NCBI RefSeq assembly: GCF_003387475.1
Contig: NZ_QUNO01000013.1
Coordinates: 1 to 64,000, forward strand
Direction of reading: 5' to 3'
DNA: 64,000 bases
From: Kutzneria buriramensis
Lineage (GTDB): Bacteria; Actinomycetota; Actinomycetes; Mycobacteriales; Pseudonocardiaceae
Translations under genes and position numbers: made by a program
Notes under the pieces: generated by a model
Seen by the model: only the letters and a program-made list of their open reading frames with translations
Told to the model about the DNA's origin: nothing
Databases searched by the model: none
Part shown: positions 9,601 to 64,000 of the stretch, in pieces
Layout: every line of letters starts with the position of its first letter
Position numbering within the stretch: the stretch's first letter is position 1

Positions 9601-10962
9601 TTCCTCAGTCAGGCCAAGCACATCGGCAAGGTGTTGCTGACCATTCCCCACGAACTCGACCCGAACGGCACCGTGCTGATCACCGGCGGCACCGGGGCCC
9701 TTGCCGCCAGCACCGCGCGGCACCTCGTCACCGCACACGGTGTCCGGCATCTGCTCCTGGCCAGCCGCGGCGGCCCGGCCGCCGCCGGCATCGACGAGCT
9801 GGTGACGGAGCTGACGGAGTTGGGCGCACGGGTCGACGTCGCCGCGGCCGATGTGTCCACACGGGACGGTGTGCTCGGTCTGCTGGCCAGGGTCGGTCAG
9901 GCGCACCCGCTCACCGCCGTGGTGCACACCGCAGGCGTGATCGACGACGGCGTGCTCGACTCGCTCACCCCGGAGCGGCTTGCCGCCGTGCTGCGGCCGA
10001 AGGTGGACGCGGCCTGGCATCTGCACGAGCTCACCCGGCACCTCGACCTGGCCGCGTTCGTGCTGTTCTCCTCGGTGGCCGGCGTGTTCGGCGGGGCCGG
10101 GCAGGGCAACTACGCCGCGGCCAACACCTTCCTCGACGCACTCGCCGAGCACCGCCGATCGCTCGGCCTGCCGGCGACCTCGATCGCATGGGGGCTGTGG
10201 GCACGCGCCAGCGGGATCACCGCCCGGCTCGACCGGGCCGAGCGCGATCGCCTGCGCCGGGCCGGACTGGTTCCGCTGGGCGACGAACAGGCCCTGCGCC
10301 TGTTCGACAGCGCGGTGGCGGCGGAGCGAGCCGGGCTGGTCGCCAGCGGGCTGGATCCGGCCGCGCTGCGCGACGCGGGGCCGCTGTTCCGCAGTTTGGC
10401 GGCAACCGCCGTGCCGCGCGCCGCCGAGGCGGCGGTCGACGAGGACAAGCTGCTCCGCCGCCTGGCCGGACTCGCCGACCCGGATCGGGCGGCGGCACTC
10501 GTCGACCTGGTCCGCGAGCAGGCGGCCACCGTGCTCGGCCATGCCGGCGCGCAGGCGGTCGACCCGGATCGGACGTTCAAGGAACTGGGTTTCGACTCGT
10601 TGACCGCGGTCGAGCTGCGCAACCGGCTCAGCGCGGCGACCGGCCTGCGGCTGGCACCCACTCTGATCTTCGACTACCCGACGGCGGAGGCGCTGGCCGG
10701 TCGGCTGGGCACCGAGCTGGTGCTCGAACCGGCTCCGTCCGATACCGACGAGGTGCTGGCCGAACTCGACCGGCTGGACCGCGCGCTGTCCGGTATCAGG
10801 CCGGACGACGCGACGCGCACCGAGATCGCCACGCGGCTGCGCCGGCTGGTCACCGACCTGGACCGGCTCGAAACCGCCCCGCCCGCACCGGCCGACCGGG
10901 TGTCGGCCCAGGAGATCTTCGACTTCATCGACAACGAAATCGGGCGACTGTCCGATCGGTAG
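688..10962 (+). CDS. Bimodular type I polyketide synthase: KS-AT(mmal)-DH(degenerate)-ACP / KS-AT(mal)-DH-ER-KR-ACP
   Basis: This 3424-residue protein adds two extender units. An N-terminal docking coiled coil (1-33) is followed by KS1 (about 35-460, active site TACSSS), AT1 (about 563-880; RVDVVQP and YASH motifs, the methylmalonyl signature), a DH-like domain (about 925-1220) and ACP1 (Ser1287). The DH motif HxxxGxxxxP is H964, D968, S973, so the Gly and Pro are lost, and there is no KR: this module should leave a beta-keto group. Module 2 has KS2 (about 1345-1775), AT2 (TRYTQP and HAFH, malonyl), intact DH2 (H2248, G2252, P2257), ER (about 2685-2985), KR (about 2993-3200; IDD motif, probably B-type) and ACP2 (Ser3304), so it is fully reducing. 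It ends in a docking tail ([10 protein letters not shown]). GGGGGACGG precedes the ATG. Confidence 0.97.
3811..3855 (+). repeat. Three perfect copies of a 15-bp in-frame tandem repeat inside the degenerate DH domain
   Basis: GGCTACCTTGCCACT occurs three times head to tail, encoding Gly-Tyr-Leu-Ala-Thr three times (residues 1042-1056 of the bimodular PKS). One copy matches the usual DH sequence after the His motif; the other two add ten residues. Because copies are identical to the base, the expansion looks recent, probably by slippage or unequal crossing-over. It lies in the DH domain whose active-site motif is also damaged. Confidence 0.97.
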
Positions 10963-47266: not shown

Positions 47267-47389
47267 TCAGTCGCCGACGCAGATGGCACACGGGGAGACG
47301 GCGGTCTGGTCGCAGACCACGCTGCCGGCGCCGCCGAAGACCTCGTCGAGCTGGGCCTCGGTCAGCTCGATCACGGGCTGGGTGTCCAT
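47267..47389 (-). CDS. Double-glycine leader precursor peptide (candidate new bacteriocin/RiPP)
   Basis: A 40-residue peptide. The first 20 residues form an acidic leader with IELTEAQLDEVFGG, the classic pattern (E-L-x-x-x-x-L-x-x-V-x-GG) recognised by C39 peptidases. Cleavage after Gly20 would free a 20-residue core beginning AGSVVC, containing Cys26, Cys34 and Cys37, two Ser/Thr-type hydroxyl residues between or before them, and ending CVGD. It overlaps the last 19 bp of the peptidase-exporter gene, and GGAAG lies 7 nt before its ATG. No lanthionine or other tailoring enzyme is adjacent, so the core may be exported unmodified, disulfide-linked or modified by an enzyme elsewhere. It is too short for most gene callers. 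Confidence 0.85.
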   Translation of the reverse strand: MDTQPVIELTEAQLDEVFGGAGSVVCDQTAVSPCAICVGD

Positions 47390-49587
47390 GTAGTCACTTC
47401 CTTTCTGGATAGTGCTGCCGACCGGCCGTTGCCGTTCGGGGACCGGGGAGCCACCTGGGCGGCGACCAGATGCGCGTACTTTCCGCCCTGGGCAACGAGT
47501 TCGTCGTGTTTGCCGGCTTCGGCGATCCGGCCGCCGTCGAGCACGAGGATCTGGTCGGCGTCGCGCACGGTGCTGAGCCGGTGGGCGATGACGATCTGCA
47601 CGCACGGCAGGTCCGCCAGGTTGGCGTGGATGCGGGCCTCGGTGGCCGCGTCGAGGTGGCTGGTCGCCTCGTCGAGCAGGAGCACCGCCGGCTTGCGCAC
47701 GACCGCTCGGGCCAGCGCCAGCCGCTGCCGCTGCCCGCCGGACAGGCCGGTGCCGCGCTGGGCGAGCTGGGTGGCATACCGGTTGGGCATGGCCATGATC
47801 TCGTCGTGCAGGCAGGCCAGTCGGGCGGCGCGCTCGATGTCGGCGACCGGGATGTCGTCGTAGACGGTGATGTTGTCGAGGATGGAGCCGGAGAACACGA
47901 ACGGCTCCTGGAGCACCGCGCCGATCTGCCGGCGCAACTCCCGTGGGTCGAAGGATTCCACCGGCACGCCGTCGAACCGGATCCGGCCGGCGGTCGGCTG
48001 GTACAGGCCGAGCAGCAGCATGCCGAGGGTGGTCTTGCCGGAGCCGGTCGCGCCGACGATCGCCACCCGCTGCCCGGGCCGGATGGCCACGGAGACCTTG
48101 TCCAGCACGGCATTGCTGTACGTGTCGTAGCGGAAGCCGACCTCGTCGACGTCGACGTTGCCGCGCAGTTCCGCGTGGACGGCGTCCTTCGGCGCCCGTT
48201 CCGGCGCGGTGTCCCAGACGTCGGCGAGGCGTTGCAGCTGCGCGCCGGCGAGTTGCAGCCGCTGCCCGTTGGACACGACCGTCGCCAGCGGCGAGACGAT
48301 CGAGGAGGAGAGCCAGATGACGGCGACCATCGTGCCCGCGGTCATCGCGCCGTCCAGCACGCGGCTCGCGCACAGCCACAGCACCAGCATCGGCGTCAGC
48401 AGCCGCAGCGCGCCCGTGCAGGACTCGATGACCGACGCCAGGTAGCTCCGCCGGAGCGTCGCCTTCATCCAGCCACGCACGAGGTCGGCGATCTGGCTGA
48501 GGGCCCGCTCCTCGGCCGCCAGCGCCTTGATGGTGGTGATGCCCTCCAGCGCCTCGACCAGGTTGCCCTGGGTGTGCGCCTGCGCGGCGAGGTCGGCGGC
48601 CATGCGTTCGCGAACCGGGCGGGTCGTCAGGCACAGCAACAGAATCACGACGATCACGATGCCCGCGACCACCACCGCGACCACCGGGTCGAACAGCGCC
48701 AGCAGGGCGATGTAGGACAGCACCAGCACCGCGTCCAGCAGCGAGCCCAGCGTCTGGCTCGTCATCAACTCCCGGATCACGGCGATGCTGGCGAACCGGG
48801 TCATGATGTCGCCGGTGCTGCGCTGCTCGAAGTACCGCAGCGGCAGGCGCAGCAGGTGGCCGGTGAACCGGACCAGCGCCGTGGAGTCCAGGCGTCCCTG
48901 GAGGAACACCAGCAGGGACGACCGCAGCAGGCCGGTCACCAGCTGCGAGACCGTCACCGCGGCGACGCCGAGACCGAGCAGTTCCAGCAGGGGTGTCGTA
49001 CGGAACTGCTCGATCTCGTCGACGGCCATCTCCGCGGAGATCGGCATGACCACCACGAGGAACTGGGCGACCACCGTCACGGCCAGGACCTGCGCCAGCA
49101 GCCGCATCGTGCCGGGCAGGCTCAGCAGCGACTTGAGGTAGCTGGACCAGAACGGCTCCACCGCCGCCTTCGTCCGGGCGAACGACTCGCCCGGACGGAA
49201 GGTCATCGCCACCTTGCCCAGCCCGGCACGGAACTCCGCCGGCGTGAGCGTGCGCCGGCCGACCGCCGGGTCGACGATGCGCACCGACCGGGTGGTGATC
49301 CGCTCGACCACCACGAAGTGGTTGTTCTGCCAGTGGACCACCGCCGGCAGGGCCAGCCCGTCGACGGCGTCGGCCGGGTAGCCGGCCGCCTCCAGCCCGA
49401 GGGCGCGGGCCGCCCGCACGATCGCGCCGGCGCTGGTGCCGTCCCGGCCCGGGGTGAACGTCTCGCGCAATTCCCGCACCGAGGTCTCGTGCCCGAAACC
49501 GCCGAGAATCATCGCGAGGCAGGCCAGGCCGCATTCGGCGTTGCTGGCCTGGAGCACGAGCGGCACCCGCCGGCGGTCAGACTCCAC
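47371..49587 (-). CDS. Peptidase-containing ABC exporter (C39 peptidase, PCAT)
   Basis: A 738-residue exporter that cuts the leader of its peptide cargo and pumps the core out. The N-terminal C39 protease (about 5-140) has QASNAECGLACLAMI with the catalytic Cys, NNHFVVVERI with the His and DPAVGRR with the Asp. Six membrane helices follow (about 160-440), then the ATPase (about 480-720): Walker A GATGSGKTT, signature LSGGQRQRLALARA, Walker B VLLLDEATSHLD. The start is GTG at 49587 after GGGGGA, overlapping the upstream small gene by 11 bp. It directly precedes and overlaps the precursor gene, its obvious substrate. Confidence 0.93.
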   Translation of the reverse strand: MESDRRRVPLVLQASNAECGLACLAMILGGFGHETSVRELRETFTPGRDGTSAGAIVRAARALGLEAAGYPADAVDGLALPAVVHWQNNHFVVVERITTRSVRIVDPAVGRRTLTPAEFRAGLGKVAMTFRPGESFARTKAAVEPFWSSYLKSLLSLPGTMRLLAQVLAVTVVAQFLVVVMPISAEMAVDEIEQFRTTPLLELLGLGVAAVTVSQLVTGLLRSSLLVFLQGRLDSTALVRFTGHLLRLPLRYFEQRSTGDIMTRFASIAVIRELMTSQTLGSLLDAVLVLSYIALLALFDPVVAVVVAGIVIVVILLLCLTTRPVRERMAADLAAQAHTQGNLVEALEGITTIKALAAEERALSQIADLVRGWMKATLRRSYLASVIESCTGALRLLTPMLVLWLCASRVLDGAMTAGTMVAVIWLSSSIVSPLATVVSNGQRLQLAGAQLQRLADVWDTAPERAPKDAVHAELRGNVDVDEVGFRYDTYSNAVLDKVSVAIRPGQRVAIVGATGSGKTTLGMLLLGLYQPTAGRIRFDGVPVESFDPRELRRQIGAVLQEPFVFSGSILDNITVYDDIPVADIERAARLACLHDEIMAMPNRYATQLAQRGTGLSGGQRQRLALARAVVRKPAVLLLDEATSHLDAATEARIHANLADLPCVQIVIAHRLSTVRDADQILVLDGGRIAEAGKHDELVAQGGKYAHLVAAQVAPRSPNGNGRSAALSRKEVTTWTPSP

Positions 49588-49762
49588 AGATCCCCCACAC
49601 CAGAACGATGACGCCGATGAGGAAAGCCAGCGCGACCAGCAGACCGAGCCAGAGCGTGCGCATGACCGGCGGGCGGACCTCGCGCGGGAACATGTCGTCC
49701 CCGGCCGGTTCCGGTTGATCCGCCTGAACGGTGAACAATAACCGCCGACTGAGCCGCGCCAT
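49577..49762 (-). CDS. Small single-helix membrane protein of the peptide-export operon
   Basis: A 61-residue protein: 30 polar residues (MARLSRRLLFTVQADQPEP), then one strong hydrophobic helix (about 35-58, LWLGLLVALAFLIGVIVLVW) ending ICGV. No homology is recognised. Position as first gene of the operon, overlapping the exporter by 11 bp, fits an immunity protein or exporter helper; this is inference. A MerR-type promoter lies about 50 bp upstream. The ribosome site (GGGGTGGGAA) is acceptable. Confidence 0.6.
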   Translation of the reverse strand: MARLSRRLLFTVQADQPEPAGDDMFPREVRPPVMRTLWLGLLVALAFLIGVIVLVWGICGV

Positions 49763-49809: not shown

Positions 49810-49840
49810 AGTGTCGCCGTTGAACACGACTTCAAGTCAA
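49810..49840 (-). promoter_or_regulatory. MerR-type promoter of the peptide-export operon
   Basis: On the minus strand TTGACT (49840-49835) is followed by a 19-nt spacer and GACACT (49815-49810). The spacer begins TGAAGTCG and ends in TTCAACGGC; the first 14 bases and the TTCAA part are the same as in the sites at 51503 and 55472. Spacers of 19-20 nt are the hallmark of promoters twisted open by MerR-family activators. Confidence 0.55.
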
Positions 49841-49853
49841 CGGCGAAATTCCG

Positions 49854-51263
49854 TCATCTCGTCGACGCGGCCACCGGCGCCGCGACCGGCACCACGCGCG
49901 CCCGCCGGCGGCGGGTCAGCAGCGACACGGGGATGATCACGAGGCTCACACCGAGCCCGATCAGCGTCACCGATGCGCCCCACTGCAGGCCGCCGAACAC
50001 CAGCAGCACCAGGTTGAACACCGCCAGCACGATCGCCAGCGCGGCCGCCGCCCGTGGCAGCCGGAAGCTGCCCGCGCGGCCCTCGGGGCGTCGGCGCAGC
50101 ACCAGGTAGGCGATCGGCAGCAGCACGAACACGATGAGGTAGCCGAAGTTCGCCGCCGCCACCACGTTGACCACGTCGGTGCCGAACACGACCAGCATGA
50201 TGGTGATCACCGTGGCGTCCAGGGCGATCGAGCCGACCGGGGCGCCGCGGCGGTTGATGCGGGCGAAGAACGTGGGCAGATGGCCGTCCTGGGCCATCTG
50301 GTACACCGTCCGCGACGAGCCGATGACGAACGTCTCGGCGCCGAGGACCAGCACGGCGGCCAGGCCGAGGCCGACGATGAGCTTGCCGGCCGGGCCGAGG
50401 AGCGCGCCGCCGGCGCTGGCGAAGGCCTCCAGCGGGTCGGCCTCGATGCCGGTCAGCCCGACCAGGCCGAACAGCGCCACCGGGACGGCCGCGAACGCGA
50501 CCAGGCAGATGATCGCCGACAGCGACATGACGCGGCCCATGTACCGCTCCGGCTTGCGGATCTCGGCGCACACCGTGGACGCCATCTCCGCGGCGTACGA
50601 GGACCAGGTCGCGACGAAGCCCCACTTGAGCAGCAGCGCGGTCACGCCGCCGAAGGTCTGCGGGGCGGCGGCCGGCAGCGCCGGCGCGAGGCGTGCGACG
50701 TCGAAGGCGGCGGGGTGCAGCAGCGGGCCGACCAGGATGATCACCAGCACCGCCACGGCGACGAGGGCCAGGCCGGCGTTGACCGCCGTGGAGAGCTTCA
50801 GGCCCATCGCGGTGATCATGTACAGCGCCGCGCCGATCACGAGCGCCAGCACGACCGGGTTGACGCCGGGCCACAGCAGGTCGCGCAAATAGGTGGCGGC
50901 CAGGATGAGGTTGACGGCGATGCCCGGCGTCCAGGCGAACCAGTAGCACCAGGCCGATAGCGCGCCCAGCGTCGGCGACCCGTTGGGGACGGCGCGGAAG
51001 GCGAACTGCGCGGTGCCGCCGGCCCGCTCCGGGAACCGGGCGGCGAGCTCGGCGACCAGCGCGCACTGGAGGCCGCCGATGACGGCGGTGCCGATCCAGA
51101 CCCAGATCGACACGGTGCCGATGTCGCCGGCCATCGCGCCCAGCGAGACGACGACCATCAGCGCGCCGCCGGTGGCGATGAGCACCGAGGCCCACCACGA
51201 GGACGTCACGGGGAGCCGGCTCCGGCCCGGGAACAGCGACACGGCGTTTTCGTTCGTCGACAA
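49854..51263 (-). CDS. APC-family amino acid permease
   Basis: A 469-residue transporter with about 12 membrane helices. SSWWASVLIATGGALMVVVSLGAMAGDIG opens the APC fold and the consensus GWxxYAAEMASTVCAEIRKPERYMGRV segment (WSSYAAEMASTVCAEIRKP) matches the amino acid/polyamine/organocation permeases. The likely start is the TTG at 51263, 6 nt after AGGAGG; the frame also has a GTG at 51281 upstream of that ribosome site. It stops 13 bp before the peptide-operon promoter region, with no terminator, so read-through is possible. Substrate not predictable. Confidence 0.85.
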   Translation of the reverse strand: MSTNENAVSLFPGRSRLPVTSSWWASVLIATGGALMVVVSLGAMAGDIGTVSIWVWIGTAVIGGLQCALVAELAARFPERAGGTAQFAFRAVPNGSPTLGALSAWCYWFAWTPGIAVNLILAATYLRDLLWPGVNPVVLALVIGAALYMITAMGLKLSTAVNAGLALVAVAVLVIILVGPLLHPAAFDVARLAPALPAAAPQTFGGVTALLLKWGFVATWSSYAAEMASTVCAEIRKPERYMGRVMSLSAIICLVAFAAVPVALFGLVGLTGIEADPLEAFASAGGALLGPAGKLIVGLGLAAVLVLGAETFVIGSSRTVYQMAQDGHLPTFFARINRRGAPVGSIALDATVITIMLVVFGTDVVNVVAAANFGYLIVFVLLPIAYLVLRRRPEGRAGSFRLPRAAAALAIVLAVFNLVLLVFGGLQWGASVTLIGLGVSLVIIPVSLLTRRRRARVVPVAAPVAASTR

Positions 51264-51502
51264 CTCCTGCCTCCTGACCACTGATTGCGGAGGAGACAGG
51301 CGCGTCCTGGCCGGTGCCGTACTGGTCAGAAGCTCGGAGCGAGCCGCGAATATGAGCGAGTGCCACTTCTCCCGCGATTACGCCGCTCGGTCGAAATGCG
51401 ATTCGCCGTCCCCAGTGGGAGTTGAACCTAACACGCGAACATCCCATGTACGGAAAATGAACCGGAACGGCGGAATGGTTGTCGGCGACGGGAGCAGGGG
51501 GC

Positions 51503-51533
51503 TTGACTTGAAGTCGCCTTCAATTGGTATACG
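51503..51533 (+). promoter_or_regulatory. MerR-type promoter pointing right, antisense to the YnfA-like gene
   Basis: TTGACT (51503-51508), 19-nt spacer, then TATACG (51528-51533): a well-formed MerR-type promoter. The first 21 bases match the 49840 site at 19 positions. Transcription would start near 51540 and run antisense through the YnfA-like gene at 51534-51917; no plus-strand gene is recognisable downstream. The remaining gap (51264-51502) shows nothing else. Confidence 0.5.
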
Positions 51534-51917
51534 TCAGAATTGGCGCGTGTCCTGATGCGTGACCGGCGTTTCCGCGGCGGCCGAGGCGGCCCGGTCCGGC
51601 CCGAGCATGATGACCGCGACGCCGACCAGGCAGATCACCGCGCCGACGACGTCCCAGCGGTCCGGCCGGAAGCCGTCGAACACCACGCCCCAGAGCAGCG
51701 AGCCGACGATGAAGACGCCGCCGTACGCGGCGAGCACCCGGCCGAAGTTCATGTCGGGCTGGAGGGTGGCGACGAAGCCGTACAGGGCGAGGCTGAGCAG
51801 TCCGCCGGCGATCCACAGCAGGCCGCGGTGCTCCCGCAGGCCCTGCCAGACCAGCCAGGAGCCGCCGATCTCGGTGACGGCGGACAGCGCGAACAGGACG
51901 ATGGAACGTAAAACCAT
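51534..51917 (-). CDS. YnfA-family (UPF0060) small membrane protein
   Basis: A 127-residue protein with four hydrophobic helices. [52 protein letters not shown] and [24 protein letters not shown] are the conserved blocks of the YnfA family, which resembles small multidrug resistance efflux proteins. It is about 20 residues longer than usual at the C terminus (the tail after MLGPDR is polar). Its end abuts a right-pointing MerR-type promoter, which would make antisense RNA. It lies 58 bp downstream of the P-type ATPase stop on the opposite side (same strand, next gene upstream is the ATPase). Confidence 0.88.
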
Positions 51918-51975
51918 GGCCCCGAGCCTAGGCGGGGCGCCGGCGGTCGACGCCGGGCCCCGCCGCGCTGTCGCC

Positions 51976-54165
51976 CTATCGGTTGACGTTCTCGGTCACG
52001 CAGCACTCGCACGGGGATTCGGGTTTCGGTGCGACGAACCGTGGCAGCGGCCGGCCGCTGAGCAGCCGCAGCCCGTTTCCGATGATCAGCAGCGCGTACG
52101 CCTCGTTGAGGAGGACGCCCTCGGTCAGCGTGAAGGCTCCGGTCATCGCCGCGACCGCCAGCACGGCGATGGCGACGATCGACAGCGTCACGTTCTGCGC
52201 GATGACCCGCCGGGCGCGCTGGGCCAGCGCGATCGTGTACGGCAGCTTGGTCAGGTCGTCGGCCATCAGCGCGACGTCGGCCGTCTCCAGGGCGACATCC
52301 GTGCCGGCGGCGCCCATCACGACCGCCACATCGGCCGCGGCCAGCGCGGGCGCGTCGTTCGTGCCGTCGCCGACCATCGCGACGGCGCCGAACTCCGCCC
52401 GCGCCAGGCTCACCGCGTCCTTCTTGTCCGCCGGCATCAGCTCCGCCTTGACGGTCTCGATACCGAGACGGTCCGCGATCGCACGTGCGACCCGCGTGCG
52501 GTCGCCGGTGAGCATGACCGTGTGGGTGACACCCAACGCGCGGATTCCCTCGACGGCGACCCGCGCGTCCGGCCGCAACTCGTCGGCGACGCCCAGCAAC
52601 CCGAGCAGCTCACCGTCCCGTCGCACGGCCACCGGCGTCGCCCCGGCCTCCTCGATCTCACCGAGCACGGCGGCGGCTCGCTCGTCCAGTTCGGCAACGC
52701 GACCGACACTGACCAGGGCCCCGTCGACCGTCGCCTCGGCACCGACGCCGGGGACGACCCGCACGTCCGCCGCCGGTCGGACGACGATGCCGCGGTCGCG
52801 GGCCGCCCGTACGACGGCGTCGGCGATGGGGTGCGTGGCACCGGCCTCGACGGTGGCCGCAAGTTCTAGAAGTTGTTTTTCCGTAAAGGTTTCGAGCGGT
52901 CGGAGTGCCGTCAGCACGGGCCGGCCGGCGGTGAGCGTGCCGGTCTTGTCGAAGGCCACCGCCCGCACCGCTGCGAGCCGTTCGAGGTAGGCGCCACCCT
53001 TGATGAGCACGCCGTCCCGGGCGGCCCGGGCGACGGAGGCGACGACGCTCACCGGCACCGACAACACCAGCGAGCAGGAGCAGGACACGATCAGCACCAC
53101 CAGCGCGCGGTAGAACGCCTCGCCGGCCGGCAGCCCGAACAGCAGCGGTCCCGCGACGGCCACCCCGATCGCCGCGACGATCATCAGCGGCGTGTAGACG
53201 GCGCCGAAGCGGTCGGCGAACCGCTGCGCCCGCCCCTTGTTCTGCTGGGCCTGCTCCACCTCGCGGATCACCCGCGCCAGCACTGTGTCCTGGAACGGCG
53301 TCGCCACGCGGACGCGGAGCACCGCCGGCCCGTTGAGGGTGCCGCCGTACACGGCAACGCCCGTGACGGCCTCGACGGGCATCGACTCACCGGTGATGGC
53401 CGACGCGTCGATCCACGACGACCCCTCGGTGACCTCGCCGTCGGTGGGCACTCGCGAACCCGGGCGCACCAGAACGATGTCGCCGACGGCCAACTCCTCG
53501 ACGCCGACGGTTTTGGCCGTGCCGTCGGGATTGAGCCGCTCGGCCCGTTGCGGGCTCAGATCCATCAGCCGCTGGATCGACTTGCGGGCCTTGTCGGCGA
53601 CGTAGCTCTCGAGCACGACGCCGAGCGAGAAGATCACCACCACGCAGTCGGCCTCGGTCGCCCGCCCCAGCGGGATCGCGCCGGCGACCGCGACGATCAG
53701 CAGCACGTTGAGGGAGAAGCGTTTGCTGCGGGCCATCGTCCACGCGGTGCGCAGTGGGTAGACGATGCCGATCGCGATGGACCCCAGCGCCACCGGTGCC
53801 GCGACGGTGTCCGAGCCGGTGATCCGCTCGGTCGTCTCGCCGATGACCAGAAGCAGTGCCGCGATGGCGAGGAACACCAGTTCTGGCCGGAGCCACCACC
53901 GGGTCCGGGCGACCCGCTGCTCCGGTTCCAGCGTGAGACCGGAGGCCGCGGCGGTGCGCACCAGCGCGCGGTCATCCACAGTGGACTCCGCGTCGATGGC
54001 CAGCGTGCCGGTGGCCGCCAGCATCCGTACCTCACGGACGCCGGGAAACCGTTGCAGCGGCGTCAGATCGCTCGCGCACTCGACACATCCCGAGACCACT
54101 CGGAACCGCCGGGTCCGCACGCCGGCTTCCGGTGGCGCCCCCGCGCCGTCCACCACGAGTCCCAT
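51976..54165 (-). CDS. Heavy-metal P1B-type ATPase with CSC in place of the CPC motif
   Basis: A 729-residue cation pump. An HMA-like N-terminal segment ([12 protein letters not shown], about 24-35) precedes the membrane region. The ATPase core is intact: TGES, phosphorylation loop [11 protein letters not shown], the HP dipeptide in [18 protein letters not shown]. The metal-path motif in helix 6, normally CPC, reads [14 protein letters not shown]: the proline is Ser (codons at 53074-53082). The C terminus is Cys-rich ([14 protein letters not shown]). Likely substrates are soft divalent or monovalent metals (Zn, Cd, Pb, Cu), but with an altered motif this is open. A MerR regulator gene lies directly upstream on the same strand. 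Confidence 0.9.
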
Positions 54166-54211
54166 GATGTGTCACCCGCCCCGTATTGTCGGTGTGCACC
54201 GCACTCCCGGT

Positions 54212-54535
54212 TCACGTCAGATCGGCGTCCAGCTCGGCCACCAGCTCGCGCAGCTGCCGGATCTGCTCCTCGACCTGCCCGCGCCGGGCCGCGATCGCCC
54301 CGCGCCACTCCCCCACCGGCGTCAGCAGCCGTTCGATGTCGGTGAGGCTGAACCCGATGATCCGCAGCGTTCGGATCACCGACAGCCGGTGCAGCACCGC
54401 AGGCGCGTAGTGCCGCCGCCCGCCGATCCGCACCCCTTCGGCGATCAGGCCGCGACTTTCGTAGTACCGCAAGGCGGAAGCCGAGACGGCGGCCGCCTCC
54501 GCGACCCGGTCGATCGGCAGCAGCGACGCGCTCAC
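54212..54535 (-). CDS. Short MerR-family regulator
   Basis: A 107-residue MerR protein. The winged helix-turn-helix reads LPIDRVAEAAAVSASALRYYESRGLIAEGVRIGGRRHY, followed by the dimerisation helix (EWRGAIAARRGQVEEQIRQLRELVAELD). It ends without the usual Cys-containing metal-binding C terminus, unlike its close paralogue at 55482. GTG is the start codon (54535). It sits between the methyltransferase terminator and the P-type ATPase, 46 bp before the latter, and may regulate that pump. Confidence 0.88.
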   Translation of the reverse strand: MSASLLPIDRVAEAAAVSASALRYYESRGLIAEGVRIGGRRHYAPAVLHRLSVIRTLRIIGFSLTDIERLLTPVGEWRGAIAARRGQVEEQIRQLRELVAELDADLT

Positions 54536-54566
54536 GATTCACCCCCTCGCGTCCGAGGCGGCTCGC

Positions 54567-54599
54567 GGCTCGTGCGGGGCCAGCGTCCCCGCACGAGCC
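54567..54599 (-). terminator. Terminator after the methyltransferase gene
   Basis: A perfect 13-bp stem (54567-54579 with 54587-54599) and 7-nt loop lies 21 bp past the methyltransferase stop and 31 bp before the MerR start, so the two are probably separate transcripts. Confidence 0.8.
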
Positions 54600-54620
54600 A
54601 CCGCCGTCGCACCTGCCCGA

Positions 54621-55334
54621 TCAGCAGCCGCATCCATCGGACTTGCCGACCGACACCGTCGCGGGCGACGTCTTGTCGGTGATCGGCCGCACGGCGCGGC
54701 CGATCACCATCGCCTCGATGAACTCCCACGCCCCGGGCATCTTCGTCTCCTGGAGGTCCTCGATGTCGAACGACGAGTCCCGCAGGGTCTGCACGGTGGG
54801 GCGGTTGCAGTGGCACTCGTTGCCGAACCAGTACCAGCCCTTCTGGATGATGTCCTGCTTGCGGGCGACCCGCGGGTCGGCGTTGCGCACGTGCTCCAGG
54901 AACAGGTACTGCCCGCCGGGCTTGAGCACCCGCCGGATCTCGGCCAGGGCCGGCCCGGGGTCTCTGACCGTGCAGAGGATCATCGCCGCGGCGACGGTGT
55001 CGATGCTCGCGTCGGCGAACGGCAGCTTCTCCGCGCCGGCGACGGTCAGCTGCACCCGCTTCGGGTAGTTCCGGATCTTCTCCTCCAGCTTGGCCACCAT
55101 GTGCGGGTACGGCTCGGTGAGCACCAGCTCGGTGACCGCATCGGGATAGTGCGCCAGGTTCAGGCCGGTGCCGGTGCCCAGCTCGACCGTCTTGCCGTAC
55201 GCGGGCTTGAGGAACTCGTGCCGCTTGTCGGCGAGCCCCGCGGCCTCGACCTTGGCGAGGAACTTGTCGTACATGCCGGCGAAGACGTACTTGCCCCAGG
55301 TGGCGTCGTAGGCCTTCTTCAGAACGTTCGTCAT
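54621..55334 (-). CDS. Class I SAM methyltransferase, METTL7/TMT1-like
   Basis: A 237-residue SAM-dependent methyltransferase. Motif I is VELGTGTGLNLAHYP, followed by LVLTEPYPHM, post-I AGAEKLPFADASIDTV and KPGGQYLFLEHV. The C-terminal layout (GNECHCNRPTVQTLRDSSF, then a W-E-F and VIGRAVRP ending) resembles METTL7/TMT1 alkyl-thiol methyltransferases, which methylate small thiols and hydrogen sulfide; this likeness is from memory. It ends with SDGCGC, a Cys pair of possible metal-binding role. GGGGAGG lies 5 nt before the ATG. A MerR-type promoter lies about 110 bp upstream, next to a divergent MerR gene. Confidence 0.8.
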   Translation of the reverse strand: MTNVLKKAYDATWGKYVFAGMYDKFLAKVEAAGLADKRHEFLKPAYGKTVELGTGTGLNLAHYPDAVTELVLTEPYPHMVAKLEEKIRNYPKRVQLTVAGAEKLPFADASIDTVAAAMILCTVRDPGPALAEIRRVLKPGGQYLFLEHVRNADPRVARKQDIIQKGWYWFGNECHCNRPTVQTLRDSSFDIEDLQETKMPGAWEFIEAMVIGRAVRPITDKTSPATVSVGKSDGCGC

Positions 55335-55441
55335 CTGGTCCTCCCCAGGTCCGAAATGGGATGTGCCCGGAAATCCCCTTAGCACGTTCGGCGGTCTAGT
55401 TGTCCCGTCAAGAGTCTGGACTCCCGCTTATCGCTGGACGT

Positions 55442-55472
55442 AGTCTCCTCGCTCAAGTCGACTTCAAGTCAA
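55442..55472 (-). promoter_or_regulatory. MerR-type promoter in the methyltransferase/MerR intergenic region
   Basis: On the minus strand TTGACT (55472-55467), 19-nt spacer starting TGAAGTCGACTTGAG, then GAGACT (55447-55442). The centre is a dyad (CTTGAAGTCGACTTGAG) of the size bound by SoxR/MerR proteins. It faces the methyltransferase and its edge is 10 bp from the start of the divergent MerR gene, so it may also autoregulate that gene. The first 14 bases are identical to the sites at 49840 and 51503. Confidence 0.6.
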
Positions 55473-55481
55473 GGGGGAGCC

Positions 55482-55943
55482 TTGAACAACGAGTTGGTGT
55501 CCATAGACAAGATCTCCCGACAGTCCGGGCTGGCCTCCTCCGCGCTGCGCTACTACGAGCGCTGCGGGCTGATCAGCGAGGGCGTGAAGGTCGGCGGCCG
55601 CCGCCATTACCCGCTCTCGATCCTGCACCGGCTGTCGGTGATCAAGGTGTGCCAGAGCGTCGGGTTCAGCCTGGCCGAGATCGCCGAGCTGCTCAACGGA
55701 ACCCCAGGTCAGGACGGCACCTGGCGGGAGCTGGCGCGGCTGCGGCGGCAGGAGATCCAGGACCAGATCCGGCGGCTGAACGATCTTTCCGAGCTGCTCG
55801 ACAGCGCCATGCGATGTCCGTGCACGGAGCTGCCCGACTGCCCGAGCCTGGCGCCGCAGGGCGATCTCGCCCGGCGCACCTCAGAGCATCATGAGAATTC
55901 TCCGGGCATTCGCGGCGCGCGCCAACTGCACCCCTTGGGCTGA
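55482..55943 (+). CDS. MerR-family regulator with Cys-rich C terminus
   Basis: A 153-residue MerR protein. The DNA-binding domain (SIDKISRQSGLASSALRYYERCGLISEGVKVGGRRHY) is close to that of the shorter paralogue at 54212. After the dimerisation helix comes MRCPCTELPDCPSL, a three-Cys cluster suited to binding a metal or an iron-sulfur cluster, as in SoxR. The tail after it is unconserved. Start codons are all non-ATG: TTG 55482 (very near GGGGGAG), TTG 55494 or GTG 55497; I use 55482. It is divergent from the methyltransferase and is the best candidate to bind the MerR-type sites in this region. Confidence 0.85.
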   Translation: MNNELVSIDKISRQSGLASSALRYYERCGLISEGVKVGGRRHYPLSILHRLSVIKVCQSVGFSLAEIAELLNGTPGQDGTWRELARLRRQEIQDQIRRLNDLSELLDSAMRCPCTELPDCPSLAPQGDLARRTSEHHENSPGIRGARQLHPLG

Positions 55944-56218: not shown

Positions 56219-57376
56219 ATGAGTGGGCGTTATGGGGGCGGGCTCCGGTCCGTGCTGGTGATCTCGCTGGGGGTGGCGCTGTCGGCGTCCGTCGCCTCGG
56301 TGGCGACGGCGGCGCCGGCCGTGACCAGCGTGCAGACCTGGGGCAACGACGGCGGTTTCGGCGCCTCGACGCCGACGGCGGTGCCCGGGGCGGCCGCCGC
56401 GGTCGCGATCGCCGCCGGTGAGAACCACAGTCTGGCGGTGATGCCCGACGGCACGGTGCGGGTCTGGGGCGCCAACAGCCACGGCCAGCTCGGCGACGGC
56501 ACCACCACCGCCAGGCCGACACCGGTGAGTCTGCCGGGCCTCACCGGCGTGAAATCGGTCGCCGGCGGCCGGTCGCACAGCCTGGCGTTGATGCGTGACG
56601 GAACCGTGCGCGCTTGGGGCGACAACTTCGACGGCGCCCTCGGTGACGGCACCACGACGACCCGGCTCTCCCCGGTCACGGTGCCTGGGTTGACGGGGGT
56701 GACGGCCGTGTCGGCCGGCGACAGCTTCAGCCTGGCGCTGCTGTCGAACGGCACCGTACGTGCATGGGGTCACAACAGCGCCGGCCAGCTCGGCGACGGC
56801 ACCACCACACCCCGGTCCACGCCGGTCACCGTGGCCGGCCTGACCGGCGTCAAGGCGATCTCCGCCGGCAACTGGTTCAGCCTGGCGTTGCTGGCCGACG
56901 GCACCGTCCGCGCCTGGGGCTTCAACTACGACGGCGAACTCGGCGACGGCACCACCACCGACCGGCTCACGCCGGTGCCGGTGTCGGGGTTGACCGGGGT
57001 GAAGGCGATCTCCGGCGGCAGCTACTTCAGCCTGGCCGCGCTGAGCGACGGCACCGCGCGGTCGTGGGGCAGCAACGGCTTCAGCGAGCTCGGCAACGGC
57101 GGTGGCGGCAACCGGTCGACTCCCGGCGTCGTCACGGGGCTGACCGGCGTCGCCACGGTCTCGGCCGGCGACGGGTACGGCCTGGCGTTGCAGACCGCCG
57201 GCACGGTTCAGGCGTGGGGCGACAACCGGTACGGCAACGTCGGGGACGGCACGACCACCACCCGCTCGACTCCGGTGCCGATTCTCTTCGGTGTCACCGC
57301 GATCTCGGCCGGCGGCCCGCAGACCTACGGCGGTGTCGCCCCGCTGGGCAGCCACGCTCTGGCGCTCCAGGGCTGA
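56219..57376 (+). CDS. Secreted RCC1-repeat beta-propeller protein
   Basis: A 385-residue exported protein. After a signal peptide (about 1-32, ending VATAAPA) come seven RCC1-type repeats of roughly 50 residues, each with a 'G-x-x-H/F-SLAL...DGTV-x-x-WG-x-N...LGDGTTT' core; WG pairs mark each blade. Seven blades give a complete propeller and leave no extra domain. In bacteria such proteins are surface or extracellular binding platforms; no enzyme activity is visible. GAGGGGAG precedes the ATG. The repeats are similar at DNA level, so copy number could change by recombination. Confidence 0.88.
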   Translation: MSGRYGGGLRSVLVISLGVALSASVASVATAAPAVTSVQTWGNDGGFGASTPTAVPGAAAAVAIAAGENHSLAVMPDGTVRVWGANSHGQLGDGTTTARPTPVSLPGLTGVKSVAGGRSHSLALMRDGTVRAWGDNFDGALGDGTTTTRLSPVTVPGLTGVTAVSAGDSFSLALLSNGTVRAWGHNSAGQLGDGTTTPRSTPVTVAGLTGVKAISAGNWFSLALLADGTVRAWGFNYDGELGDGTTTDRLTPVPVSGLTGVKAISGGSYFSLAALSDGTARSWGSNGFSELGNGGGGNRSTPGVVTGLTGVATVSAGDGYGLALQTAGTVQAWGDNRYGNVGDGTTTTRSTPVPILFGVTAISAGGPQTYGGVAPLGSHALALQG

Positions 57377-60209: not shown

Positions 60210-60391
60210 TGAGCGCTCCGGAGGCTGAGCGGCCGCAGATCCGTCCAGATCTGGGCGATGTGGTCGAGGCACTCCTGCCGGCTGCCCTCGAAGCCGACGG
60301 GCCACCAGCCGGCCGGGACCTGCCGCCCGGCGAACCAGACGGAGTGCTGCTCCTCGTCGTTGCGGACGACGGCGAACAGTTCGGTGCTCAT
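60206..60391 (-). CDS. mbtH: MbtH-like NRPS accessory protein
   Basis: A 61-residue MbtH-family protein, which binds NRPS adenylation domains and activates or stabilises them. The signature is complete: FAVVRNDEEQHSVWFAGRQVPAGW with a W-P-V-G-F and CLDHIAQIWTDLRP. The ATG overlaps the NRPS stop (ATGA), so it is made in step with its partner. Confidence 0.95.
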   Translation of the reverse strand: MSTELFAVVRNDEEQHSVWFAGRQVPAGWWPVGFEGSRQECLDHIAQIWTDLRPLSLRSAQ

Positions 60392-63300
60392 CGGGCGCTC
60401 CCCACTTCGGCCGCGAGGATCGCGGCGAGCTGGCTGACCTGGTCGGGGTCGAGGAATGTCGTCGCCCCGCCGGGCAGTTCGTGCTGGCGGACCGGGCCGG
60501 TGAGGATCTTGGACCAGCCCATGTCCGGCGGCGTCGGGTTCTCGGCGGGTAGCACGAACACGTGCGCCTCGCCGTCGTAGTCGGGCAGCGTGCGGGCGGT
60601 GATCGCCCGCGCGTTGGCCTGGTACACCGCGAGCAGCCGCTTGGCGTCGTCCACACTGGACACGTCCGCCCGGCTGGAGCCGCGGTTGAGCACGTAGTCC
60701 ACCTGCCGGTCGGTGTCACCCAGCGCGGCCAGCTCGTCGTAGTCGAGGTCGAGACCCTCGCCGAGCATGTGCTGCACCAGCGCCGTCGAGTCGTTGAGCA
60801 GGATGCGCGGCGCCGGGTCGAACGGGTTGGCCACGATCAGCCCGAGGAAGTCCACCTGCTCCCCCTCGGACCGGAGCCGACGCGCGGTCTCCACGGCCAC
60901 CGACGCGCCCATGCACCAGCCGGCCAGGTTGTACGGGCCGTGCGGCTGGATGGCCCGCAGCTCGGTCAGGTAGGCGTCGACCAGGTCGGCCAGCGAGTCG
61001 CGCAGCGGCTCGCCCGGCTCCATGCCCGAGGCCCGCACCGCCTGCACGGTGACCTTGCCGTCCAGCTCGCGGCTGAGCGGCGCGTAGCCGAAGACGTGGC
61101 CGCCGAGGGGGTGGAACAGGAACAACGTCGGGCGGCCGGTCTCGTTGAGCGGCATCACCAACGGGTTCTGCCCGGGCTTGTCCCGGTCGATCAGCGCCGC
61201 CAGCCGGTGGATCGTGCTGGCGTGGATCATCGCGGCGACCGGCAGCTCGACCTGGAGCCGCTCGCGCACCTTCAGCACGACGCGCAGCGCCCGCAGCGAA
61301 TGCCCGCCCAGGTCGAAGAAGTTGGCGTGCACGCCGACGGCCGGCAGCTCCAGCACCTCGCGCCAGATCTCGGCCAGCACCCGCTCGGTCTCGGTGCCGG
61401 GCTCGGTGGTGTCGCCGCCGACGCTGGCCTCGCCGCCGATGGCCGGCAGCGCCTTGCGGTCGACCTTGCCGTTCGGGGTCTTCGGCAGCTCGTCGAGGAA
61501 CACCCAGGCCTGCGGCACCATGTAGTGCGGCAGCGCCTGCGAGCACCACTCCCGCAGCTTGGCGCCGTCGATCTCGTTGCGAGCGACGACGTAGCCGACG
61601 AGGATGCGCTCGCCGTCGGACCCCATCGGGGCGGCCGCGACACCCATCGACACGTCCGGGTGGGTGTCGATGCGGGCCTCGATCTCCTCCAGCTCGATCC
61701 GGTAGCCGCGCACCTTCACCTGGAGGTCGACCCGCTCCAGGTACTCGTACGTGCCGTCGTCCAGCGTCCGCACCAGGTCGCCGGTCCGGTAGAGCCGGGA
61801 ACCGTTGCCGGAGAAGGGATCCGGCACGAACCGGTCCGCGGTCAGGTCGGGCCGCCGGTGGTAGGCGCGGGCCACGCCGTCGCCGCCGATGTGCAGCTCG
61901 CCGGGCACGCCCGGGAACACCGGCGCCATCTGCTTGTCCAGGATCCACATGGTGGTGTTGCCGAGCGGGCGGCCGATCGGCACCATCGAGCCGGTCGCCG
62001 CGACCCGCTGCACGGCCGACCACACGGTGGTCTCCGTCGGCCCGTAGACGTTCCACACCGGCACGCCGTCGGCGGTGAGCCGGTCGGCGAGCTCGCGGGG
62101 GAACGCCTCGCCGCCGCAGAGCACGTGGCTCATGCCGTACGGGCGCCAGCCGGCGTCGAGCAGCATCCGCCACATCGCCGGCGGCCCCTGGGCGGCCAGC
62201 CCCGGCTCGGACTCGATGAGCGAGCGGAGCTCCGTGCCGTCGGAGACCTGCTCGCGGGCGGCCAGCAGCACCGAGCCGCCGCGGATCAGCGGCAGGAACA
62301 CCTCGTTGACGTGGATGTCGAAGCTGATCGAGGTGGTGGCCAGGTGCACCATGTCCTCGTCGGCGTCGAGCACCTCGCCCAGCGACTCCAGCAGGTTGAT
62401 CACGGCCCGGTGGCGCACCTGCACGCCCTTGGGCAGACCCGTGGAACCGGAGGTGTAGATCGTGTACGCGATGTCGTCGCCGGACACCTCGACCGGCGCG
62501 GCGGCGCCGTCGTGCTCGGCCGCCGCCTCCACGGACAGCGCCTGCGGCTTCAGCTCGGCGGCGACGGCGGCGGACGCCTCGTCGTACAGCAGCACCGCCG
62601 ACTCGCTGTGCTCGGCGATGTACCGCAGCCGGTCGATCGGGTACTCCGGGTCGAGCGGCACGTAGTTCGCGCCGATCCGCAGCACGCCCAGCAGAGCCGG
62701 CAGCAGCAGGCGGTTCCGGTTCATACACACGCCGACCGGGTCGCCGCGCTTCACGCCCGCCGCGGCCAGGTAGCCGCCGATGCGGCCGGCGAGGTCGTGC
62801 AGCTCGTCGTAGTCGAGCTCGCCGTCGACCGCGCGCACCGCCAGCTCCGAGCCGGTCTCGATGCGCTGGTACAGGCCGGCCGGACCGTCCAGCGCCAGCT
62901 TGGGACCGGCGGCGTGCGCGGCCAGGGCGTCGAGGTCCTCGTCGGCCAGCGCCGAGGTCGCCACCACCGAGGACTCCGGGTCGGTGGCGATCCGCTCCAG
63001 CACGGCCAGGTAGCCGCGGCTGATCCGGTCCACGTCGGCCGGGTCGAAGCGCCCGGCGTCGTAGCGGATCTGGAGCCGCAGCGAGGAGCCGTCCGGGGTC
63101 ATCACGAAGCCGGAGGTGATCGGGAAGTTGGTGTGCTCGTAGTAGGCGCCGATGTCGAAGGACAGGTCGTCCTGGCTGGACAGGCCCTCGTAGCTGCGGA
63201 ACCGCCGGAAGTCGAAGACGATGTCGAACGGGTTCCAGCCGGTGTGCTCGACCATCGCCGCCAGCGGGTACCGGCGGTGCGGCAGGATCGCCGTCTCCTT

Positions 63301-64000
63301 GGCGAACACCGAGGCGACGAACCCGCTCCAGGAGTCGGCCAGTTCCAGGCGGAACGGGTAGGTGCCGATGAACAGGCCCTTGACCTGCTCGGCGTCGCTG
63401 GTCTCGGGGCGGCCGTTGCCGATCACGCCGGTGATCACGTCGTGCCGGCCGAGCAGCGCCGCCGACACGCGCAGGTGCGCCGCCAGCAGCACGGTCCGCA
63501 CGGGGACGCGCAGCCGCTCGGCCAGCTCGGTGACGCCGACGACCGTCTTGTCGGGCGCGTCGTGCCAGCTCACCTCGACGGTGCCGATGGCGTCCGCGCG
63601 CTTGGTCGGGGTCGGCAGCAGCGCGGGCTCGGCGCCGGCCAGCTCGCCCTGCCAGAACTCCTCGGCGTCCTCGTCGTCCAGCGCGTCCAGCTCCAGGGCG
63701 ACGAAGTCGCGGAACCGGGTGCGCGGCGTGGCGAACTGCGGGTCCCGGCCCTGGCGAGCCGCCGCGTAGCCGGCGAAGAGCTCGGCGACGGCCGAGTGCA
63801 GGCTCCAGCCGTCCATGATCGCGTGGTGGAAGCTCCACCAGAAGTGGAACTCGTTCTCGCCGACCAGGTGCACGACGAACCGGAACAGCGGGGCGCTGCT
63901 GAGGTCGAACGCGTTGCCGACCTCCGTCCGCCGCCAGCGTTCCAGCGTCCCGTCGAGGTCCTGGTGGCCGCGCAGGTCGATGACCTCGAACGGGACCTCG
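60388..64000 (-). CDS. Nonribosomal peptide synthetase, last module C-A-PCP-TE (N terminus beyond the window)
   Basis: About 1204 residues of the C-terminal end are visible; the frame is open to base 64000, so the gene starts outside. Condensation domain (from the edge to about 62910): FHHAIMDGWSLHS is intact. Adenylation domain (about 62890-61400): YTIYTSGSTGLPKG, YGPTETT, GELHIGG, YRTGDL, NGKVDRKAL. Reading the pocket by eye gives D-I-N-Q-L-G-V-V-W-K, close to known glycine codes. PCP: FFDLGGHSLRALRV. Thioesterase (about 61130-60420): nucleophile elbow GWCMGAS has Cys (codon 60913-60915) where Ser is usual. It makes and releases the peptide; MbtH, an LLM monooxygenase and a binding protein follow in the same operon. 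The GTG at 63873 is internal. Confidence 0.95.
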   Translation of the reverse strand, partial: EVPFEVIDLRGHQDLDGTLERWRRTEVGNAFDLSSAPLFRFVVHLVGENEFHFWWSFHHAIMDGWSLHSAVAELFAGYAAARQGRDPQFATPRTRFRDFVALELDALDDEDAEEFWQGELAGAEPALLPTPTKRADAIGTVEVSWHDAPDKTVVGVTELAERLRVPVRTVLLAAHLRVSAALLGRHDVITGVIGNGRPETSDAEQVKGLFIGTYPFRLELADSWSGFVASVFAKETAILPHRRYPLAAMVEHTGWNPFDIVFDFRRFRSYEGLSSQDDLSFDIGAYYEHTNFPITSGFVMTPDGSSLRLQIRYDAGRFDPADVDRISRGYLAVLERIATDPESSVVATSALADEDLDALAAHAAGPKLALDGPAGLYQRIETGSELAVRAVDGELDYDELHDLAGRIGGYLAAAGVKRGDPVGVCMNRNRLLLPALLGVLRIGANYVPLDPEYPIDRLRYIAEHSESAVLLYDEASAAVAAELKPQALSVEAAAEHDGAAAPVEVSGDDIAYTIYTSGSTGLPKGVQVRHRAVINLLESLGEVLDADEDMVHLATTSISFDIHVNEVFLPLIRGGSVLLAAREQVSDGTELRSLIESEPGLAAQGPPAMWRMLLDAGWRPYGMSHVLCGGEAFPRELADRLTADGVPVWNVYGPTETTVWSAVQRVAATGSMVPIGRPLGNTTMWILDKQMAPVFPGVPGELHIGGDGVARAYHRRPDLTADRFVPDPFSGNGSRLYRTGDLVRTLDDGTYEYLERVDLQVKVRGYRIELEEIEARIDTHPDVSMGVAAAPMGSDGERILVGYVVARNEIDGAKLREWCSQALPHYMVPQAWVFLDELPKTPNGKVDRKALPAIGGEASVGGDTTEPGTETERVLAEIWREVLELPAVGVHANFFDLGGHSLRALRVVLKVRERLQVELPVAAMIHASTIHRLAALIDRDKPGQNPLVMPLNETGRPTLFLFHPLGGHVFGYAPLSRELDGKVTVQAVRASGMEPGEPLRDSLADLVDAYLTELRAIQPHGPYNLAGWCMGASVAVETARRLRSEGEQVDFLGLIVANPFDPAPRILLNDSTALVQHMLGEGLDLDYDELAALGDTDRQVDYVLNRGSSRADVSSVDDAKRLLAVYQANARAITARTLPDYDGEAHVFVLPAENPTPPDMGWSKILTGPVRQHELPGGATTFLDPDQVSQLAAILAAEVGSAR

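Follow-up and report, generated by a model that had tools for sequence, protein, structure and literature searches.

A MerR-type promoter element recurring at three sites of a Kutzneria buriramensis locus probably marks a small local regulon

The stretch of DNA analyzed here (the window) comprises the first 64,000 nucleotides of contig NZ_QUNO01000013.1 of Kutzneria buriramensis (assembly GCF_003387475.1), a member of the Pseudonocardiaceae, and contains three copies of a putative promoter element of the kind associated with MerR-family regulators. An earlier note on this DNA had pointed to these copies and proposed a local regulon run by a cysteine-rich MerR protein. The three sites, designated A, B, and C, and the genes that surround them are as follows.

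49810..49840, minus strand: site A, a putative MerR-type promoter, with -35 box TTGACT at 49840-49835, dyad at 49835-49820, and -10 box GACACT at 49815-49810
51503..51533, plus strand: site B, an orphan operator with TTGACT, the dyad TTGAA-N6-TTCAA, and the box TATACG at 51528-51533
55442..55472, minus strand: site C, putative promoter of the methyltransferase operon, adjoining the divergent merR1; -10 box GAGACT at 55447-55442
55482..55943, plus strand: MerR1, a SoxR-like MerR-family regulator with the motif C112-x-C114-x5-C120 (Pfam MerR, NCBIfam, alignments)
54621..55334, minus strand: class I S-adenosylmethionine (SAM) methyltransferase, the first gene behind site C (Pfam, orthologues, model)
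54212..54535, minus strand: MerR2, a 107-residue MerR paralogue without cysteine (Pfam and NCBIfam, alignment)
51976..54165, minus strand: heavy-metal P1B-type ATPase with CSC for CPC (TIGR01525, 540.8 bits against a cut-off of 346.25)
51534..51917, minus strand: YnfA family membrane protein (NF002586, 147.2 bits against a cut-off of 114; PF02694)
49854..51281, minus strand: amino acid permease family protein (PF13520; orthologues of 64-71% in the loci of seven relatives)
49577..49762, minus strand: orf61, a small protein with a hydrophobic stretch, the first open reading frame (ORF) behind site A (no family match)
47371..49587, minus strand: C39-peptidase ABC exporter (PF03412, PF00664, PF00005)
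47267..47389, minus strand: 40-residue precursor peptide with a double-glycine (GG) leader and the core AGSVVCDQTAVSPCAICVGD, which holds C-x7-C-x2-C

The 14-base identity at three loci that had been claimed is exact: TTGACTTGAAGTCG occurs in the window at 49840 (minus strand), 51503 (plus), and 55472 (minus). Its recurrence is likewise beyond chance, as none of 100 dinucleotide-shuffled windows contained an exact copy and the base composition (71.5% GC) predicts 4.5e-5 copies per 64 kb, or 0.008 per genome. A scan of the whole genome (11.97 Mb in 65 contigs) with up to one mismatch returned the same three copies and no fourth, and a 21-nt degenerate operator, TTGACTTGAAGNCGNNTTSAR, allowed up to two mismatches, found the same three sites only; the many unrelated genomic copies that, by the earlier note, would have refuted a regulon were not encountered at these thresholds. 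When three mismatches are allowed the 14-mer is unremarkable in the window (five matches, including site C read in reverse, versus 1.89 expected), and the strength of the element lies in its exactness and conservation. It is scarcely credible that the three copies reflect chance or the spread of a functionless repeat: the presence of a site (B) with no gene in front of it is the single observation found to favor such an origin, while the shuffles and the lack of further genomic copies contradict it and both the element and its spacing are conserved across other genera and in a single genome from a different family.

Each copy is laid out as TTGACT, TGAA-N6-TT(C/G)A(A/G), and a -10 box, such that the dyad TTGAA-N6-TTCAA overlaps the 3' end of the -35 box. 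The second half of the dyad reads TTCAA at sites A and B and TTGAG at site C, and at sites A and B its center lies 7 bp after TTGACT. Nineteen nucleotides after TTGACT, site A has the box GACACT, site B TATACG, and site C GAGACT. When these sites were aligned with 20 from seven relatives, NANNNT was found exactly 19 nt on in 22 of the 23 rows, which are mostly orthologous promoters and hence not independent, versus no more than three rows when the spacing is set to any other value between 13 and 29; the -10 box had played no part in finding the sites. Site B is the sole exception. Spacers of 19-20 bp with an internal palindrome are described as typical of MerR promoters in PMC9909328, and in CueR and CadR-PbrR sites, according to PMC5045206, the dyad center likewise lies 7 bp after the -35 box. 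With a spacer of this length in 22 of 23 sites, a dyad within it, and an adjoining merR-family gene, the element is, to judge from its sequence, an ordinary member of the MerR promoter type.

The start codon of merR1 (55482) is 9 nt away from site C, from which the gene diverges. Thirty loci drawn by a protein search with MerR1 were oriented by strand, and a 160-nt stretch reaching just into the matched gene was scanned for the operator with no more than three of 15 fixed bases wrong. The operator was present upstream of merR in 19 of these loci (18 of 29 without that of the window) versus none of 553 equally long control windows from these loci, and all 19 sites point away from merR, as site C does. 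By these counts, the operator travels with the MerR clade of the protein encoded at 55482.

By score, the family closest to MerR1 is SoxR (TIGR01950), at 84.3 bits and thus below the cut-off of 116.9, and its best solved structure is also that of SoxR (2zhg). MerR1 retains three of the four cluster cysteines of SoxR (C112, C114, and C120), with alanine in place of the first; the missing cysteine and the score below the cut-off rule it out as SoxR proper. It also falls below the curated cut-offs for CueR (61.8 of 147.4 bits), MerR (58 of 150.85), ZntR (34.7 of 167.95), and CadR-PbrR (35 of 151.45). A CxCx5C loop is found in nine of ten aligned MerR proteins, the tenth being the cysteine-free MerR2. 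Directly downstream of merR1, at 56219-57376, lies a gene for a secreted-looking protein that, read by eye, contains RCC1-like repeats.

MerR2 is itself a candidate for the sites, being 46-48% identical to MerR1, sharing with it the stretch SALRYYE, and being encoded inside the operon behind site C. That MerR2, or both proteins, work the three sites while MerR1 has another role is nonetheless unlikely, since MerR2 lacks both cysteine and the C-terminal loop, the site adjoins merR1 rather than merR2, and the clade with upstream sites was drawn by MerR1. Of the regulon that had been proposed under a cysteine-rich MerR, the local character is well supported, with MerR1 as the probable regulator, and the proposal as a whole is upheld in part.

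The same operator is found well outside of this locus. The pattern TTGACTTGAA-N6-TTCAA, with at most one mismatch, is present in 117 of 390 genomes of the family (its reversed control in six), and exact matches occur in 23 of 396 genomes of the phylum (control pattern in two); the operator type is therefore general and the window one case of it. Such abundance, together with the 12 matches to MerR1 in the source genome (one at C3:530964, 35% identical), lends something to the suggestion that another SoxR-like protein encoded elsewhere in the genome uses the sites and the MerR pair is a bystander. We regard this as quite unlikely, as all three genomic sites fall within 5.7 kb around MerR1.

Orthologues of the methyltransferase (75-83% identity) were found in seven genomes, namely six of the Pseudonocardiaceae and one, G836, of another family; beyond these, the next matches among 348 sampled genomes of the order were 45-46% identical. 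An exact scan of the seven genomes with TTGACTTRAA-N6-TTSAR yielded 20 sites, 19 of which lie at the methyltransferase (seven, one in each genome), a nonribosomal peptide synthetase (NRPS) operon beside the ATPase (seven, one in each genome), or genes of the SAM cycle (five). The ATPase-side sites adjoin an orthologous P-type ATPase (66-68%) and face a ferredoxin-NRPS operon, or in G836 the NRPS directly. A second MerR-type promoter, TTGACC-TTGGAGTGCGGTCCAACCT-TTACCG, is present at L042:5158-5191 (plus strand); it is oriented toward the P-type ATPase, in the direction opposite to the adjoining ferredoxin site, and probably serves a different MerR. The SAM-cycle sites belong to S-adenosylhomocysteine hydrolase in G239 and G214 and SAM synthetase in G088 and G083; the two hydrolases and the G088 synthetase score above their family cut-offs, the G083 synthetase is cut by a contig end (137.7 of 309.4 bits), and the fifth site (G295, contig C57) ends at a contig edge and was placed by gene order only. 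The twentieth site (G295, contig C30) lies beside another merR gene and was counted outside of these groups. In six of the seven relatives the site stands between a divergent permease and methyltransferase, while G836 has the order methyltransferase, site, merR1, the same as at site C. The MerR1 clade is represented in the window and in all seven relatives' clusters (46-60% identity).

The adenylation (A) domain codes of the relatives' NRPS are DLYNLSLIWK (L041, L037), DLYNMSLIWK (L038), and DLWNMSLIW (G836), which is the cysteine code; the badly aligned L042 domain (DLYTILI--K) was left out of this reading. The L042 NRPS comprises condensation, adenylation, carrier, and thioesterase domains, and the polyketide synthase (PKS) in L038 and L001 has the domains KS-AT-DH-KR. 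The source genome has no orthologue of this cysteine-type NRPS (best match 32%). The NRPS at 60.4-63.9 kb of the window was considered as its counterpart and rejected (best match 32%, A-domain code DINQLGVV). Large PKS and NRPS genes flank the regulon at 688-10962 and 60388-63999 (the latter continuing past 64000); they match the relatives' PKS and NRPS at only 32-42%, and the genome-wide operator scans found no MerR-type site in front of them.

Behind site C, the minus strand carries in order the methyltransferase (start at 55334), MerR2, the P-type ATPase, and YnfA. The ATPase scores above two heavy-metal family cut-offs, TIGR01525 among them. CPC is the commonest metal motif of heavy-metal P-type ATPases; the window protein has CSC instead, as do the five relatives' proteins read for this motif (L040, L041, L042, L102, and G836; L138 was not counted), whose C-terminal tails are rich in cysteine (CGDDCGCG). 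A literature search on the CSC motif found no paper that uses this term. The predicted model of the methyltransferase has a mean pLDDT of 85.8, and two of its cysteines, C121 and C174, are invariant among 21 homologues.

Behind site A follow orf61, the C39-peptidase ABC exporter, and the 40-residue peptide, with leader ELTEAQLDEVFGG and a core containing C-x7-C-x2-C. A C39 domain, ABC domains, and an adjoining GG-leader peptide, the features of a C39 exporter with a GG-leader substrate, are all present, and the exporter falls below the cut-off for the NHLP bacteriocin exporter (TIGR03796; 574.5 versus 853.3 bits). Two PADLOC matches of the exporter were set aside, both being partial and confined to its C-terminal ATPase region. 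Exporter matches at 1e-140 or better occur in nine of 249 family genomes, that of the window included, and in none of the plasmid records; the best relatives are 65% (G204) and 64% (G171) identical, and the next 46% or less. Besides that of the window, matches at 1e-170 were found in one of 150 genomes of the order and three of 148 of the class (45-48%), with no peptide of the present kind found beside them. Directly behind the exporter in G204 (two peptides) and G171 lie GG-leader peptides with C-x7-C-x-C, and in a scan for GG peptides near 14 exporter loci the C-x7-C-x1-2-C kind was confined to the window, G204, and G171. The surroundings of these two exporters are metal-related: the G204 locus (L150:2171-11344) encodes two ArsR-type regulators, a heavy-metal P-type ATPase, a DUF169 protein, and, beside the peptides, a MerB-like lyase (above the PF03243 cut-off and below that of NCBIfam MerB, with 84 of 200 bits), and the G171 locus (L151:3587-9624) encodes two ArsR-type regulators, a DUF169 protein, and the mercuric reductase MerA (590.1 bits, cut-off 454.45). 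By eye, none of the four loci inspected out of six wider ones around distant exporters (L157 and L159 being left out) appeared metal-like, and two (L160 and L161) hold other genes resembling peptide precursors. A C39 exporter with cysteine-bearing GG peptides in ArsR-type loci could possibly represent a peptide-export branch of metal resistance.

Site B differs from its siblings. The right-pointing start claimed for it at 51503 does not hold, as the plus-strand ORF at 51540-51911 is antisense to the YnfA gene at 51534-51917 (minus strand), which is supported over that ORF by its NF002586 score and by a third-position GC content (GC3) of 0.94, and no gene was found in front of the site. Site B is placed upstream of the permease, 222 nt from its start and divergent from it, the position held by the methyltransferase promoter in six relatives. 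It would appear to be a relic or a spare, and probably a relic of the relatives' order of permease, site, and methyltransferase; it might conceivably act as an antisense promoter. Sites B and C are inverted copies flanking the block from methyltransferase to YnfA, and the orientation of this block relative to the permease differs from that in the six relatives, so that an inversion between the B and C copies is possible.

Taken together, the three copies of a long-spacer promoter appear to form a small and private circuit of control that, from its gene content, probably induces metal pumping along with a methyltransferase and the export of a cysteine-rich peptide. The strict 19-nt spacing, the operators of the MerR1 clade, and the orthologous methyltransferase sites in all seven relatives bear out the local regulon that had been proposed. 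Sequence, spacing, uniqueness, conservation, the link to the MerR1 clade, and gene content are direct observations, and on this basis we consider it probable that MerR1 governs a dedicated local regulon of which sites A and C are the promoters. MerR1 would bind the dyad within the 19-nt spacer and keep the promoters off until a ligand, sensed via C112, C114, and C120, causes a distortion of the DNA that renders them usable by RNA polymerase. Site C would then drive the methyltransferase, MerR2, the P-type ATPase, and YnfA, with self-control of merR1, and site A would drive orf61, the C39 exporter, and the trithiol peptide. MerR2, a DNA-reading half with no sensor, may damp the response.

The ligand would most likely be a soft metal (of the Hg/Cu/Cd/Zn class) or a reactive thiol compound, and the most likely job of the circuit the removal of soft metal by the pump and the exported cysteine peptide, with the methyltransferase capping a reactive thiol or metalloid. 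A lesser though serious prospect is that the same regulon answers to a thiol antibiotic or redox stress, the site C operon conferring resistance to a cysteine-bearing product like that of the relatives. In the relatives, genes for a cysteine-type NRPS, the methyltransferase, and SAM-cycle enzymes all share the operator, the source genome lacks an orthologue of that NRPS, and MerR1 is nearest to SoxR. In favor of metal, however, are the heavy-metal P-type ATPase and the occurrence of the exporter's relatives in metal loci, and MerR1 is without one of the four cluster cysteines of SoxR. The two kinds of ligand need not exclude one another, since soft metals are bound by thiols and the relatives' cluster apparently encodes a product containing cysteine.

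Several observations, in addition to the non-independence of the aligned sites, weigh against a dedicated MerR1 regulon with this function. The upstream regions of the six merR1-like genes fetched from clusters of the relatives (L006-L011) are devoid of the operator. The sites of these genomes could be bound by MerR139, a different type of MerR protein that all seven clusters encode; the window itself yielded no MerR139 match exceeding 35% identity, a search that did not extend to the remainder of the genome. No MerR operator was found at the exporter loci of G204 or G171, and no orthologue of the exporter was found in the stretches fetched from the seven methyltransferase relatives, so that site A has been observed together with the exporter in a single genome. 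Lastly, a fold search with the methyltransferase returned generic class I enzymes, the best of which is a phosphatidylethanolamine (phospholipid) N-methyltransferase at 24% identity.

The dedicated MerR1 regulon, if it exists, would have as its private outputs from three sites a methyltransferase, a metal ATPase with an unusual motif, a second MerR without a sensor, and an exported cysteine peptide. Its operator offers a direct handle on the ligand, and the ligand would in turn suggest the role of the cysteine-type NRPS cluster found in six Pseudonocardiaceae and one genome of another family, while the placement of the exporter-peptide pair beside a MerA or MerB-like gene suggests metal defense through peptide export. 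More speculatively, and with considerable reserve, the cell may export a short ribosomal trithiol peptide (C-x7-C-x1-2-C, cut at its GG leader) as an extracellular trap for soft metals, coupled to the CSC-type ATPase and the methyltransferase, while in the relatives the same operator drives a cysteine-type NRPS/PKS product, making for one module with two unrelated routes to an exported thiol chelator. Were this so, the same unrecognized resistance strategy would extend to the cysteine peptides of G204 and G171.

Comparison with known systems reveals both similarities and differences. MerR promoters are textbook elements, and those of the metal type (MerR, CueR, CadR/PbrR) share with the present sites a dyad between the -35 and -10 boxes, a 19-nt spacer, an adjoining regulator gene, and a P-type ATPase behind the promoter; they differ in that MerR1 falls below the cut-offs of their regulator families. 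To our knowledge, a methyltransferase, YnfA, and an exporter-peptide operon are not usual targets of such promoters. SoxR provides the top family score, the top solved structure, and three of the four cluster cysteines, but MerR1 has alanine for the first of these and scores below the SoxR cut-off. The mer loci of G204 and G171 resemble the site A operon in an exporter 64-65% identical and an adjoining GG-leader peptide with C-x7-C-x1-2-C, and differ in having ArsR regulators, DUF169, and MerA or MerB-like genes instead of a MerR operator.

The window methyltransferase presumably also resembles the METTL7/TMT1 thiol methyltransferases in its motifs. It has two cysteines, C121 and C174, invariant among its homologues, although no thiol methyltransferase was among the sequence and fold matches listed for it. 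METTL7/TMT1 proteins are identified as alkyl thiol methyltransferases in PMC7921093. With self-protection by S-methylation in holomycin and gliotoxin producers, as described in the literature, the relatives share a methyltransferase beside genes for a thiol-bearing product, whereas the source genome is without the orthologous NRPS and no such product is known here. We know of no described MerR regulon, be it a mer, cue, or sox operon, with this gene content, and nothing recognized as such was among the matches listed in searches of an open-access library. Set against these systems, the regulon is a new variant in which a known type of promoter is joined to an unusual set of genes.

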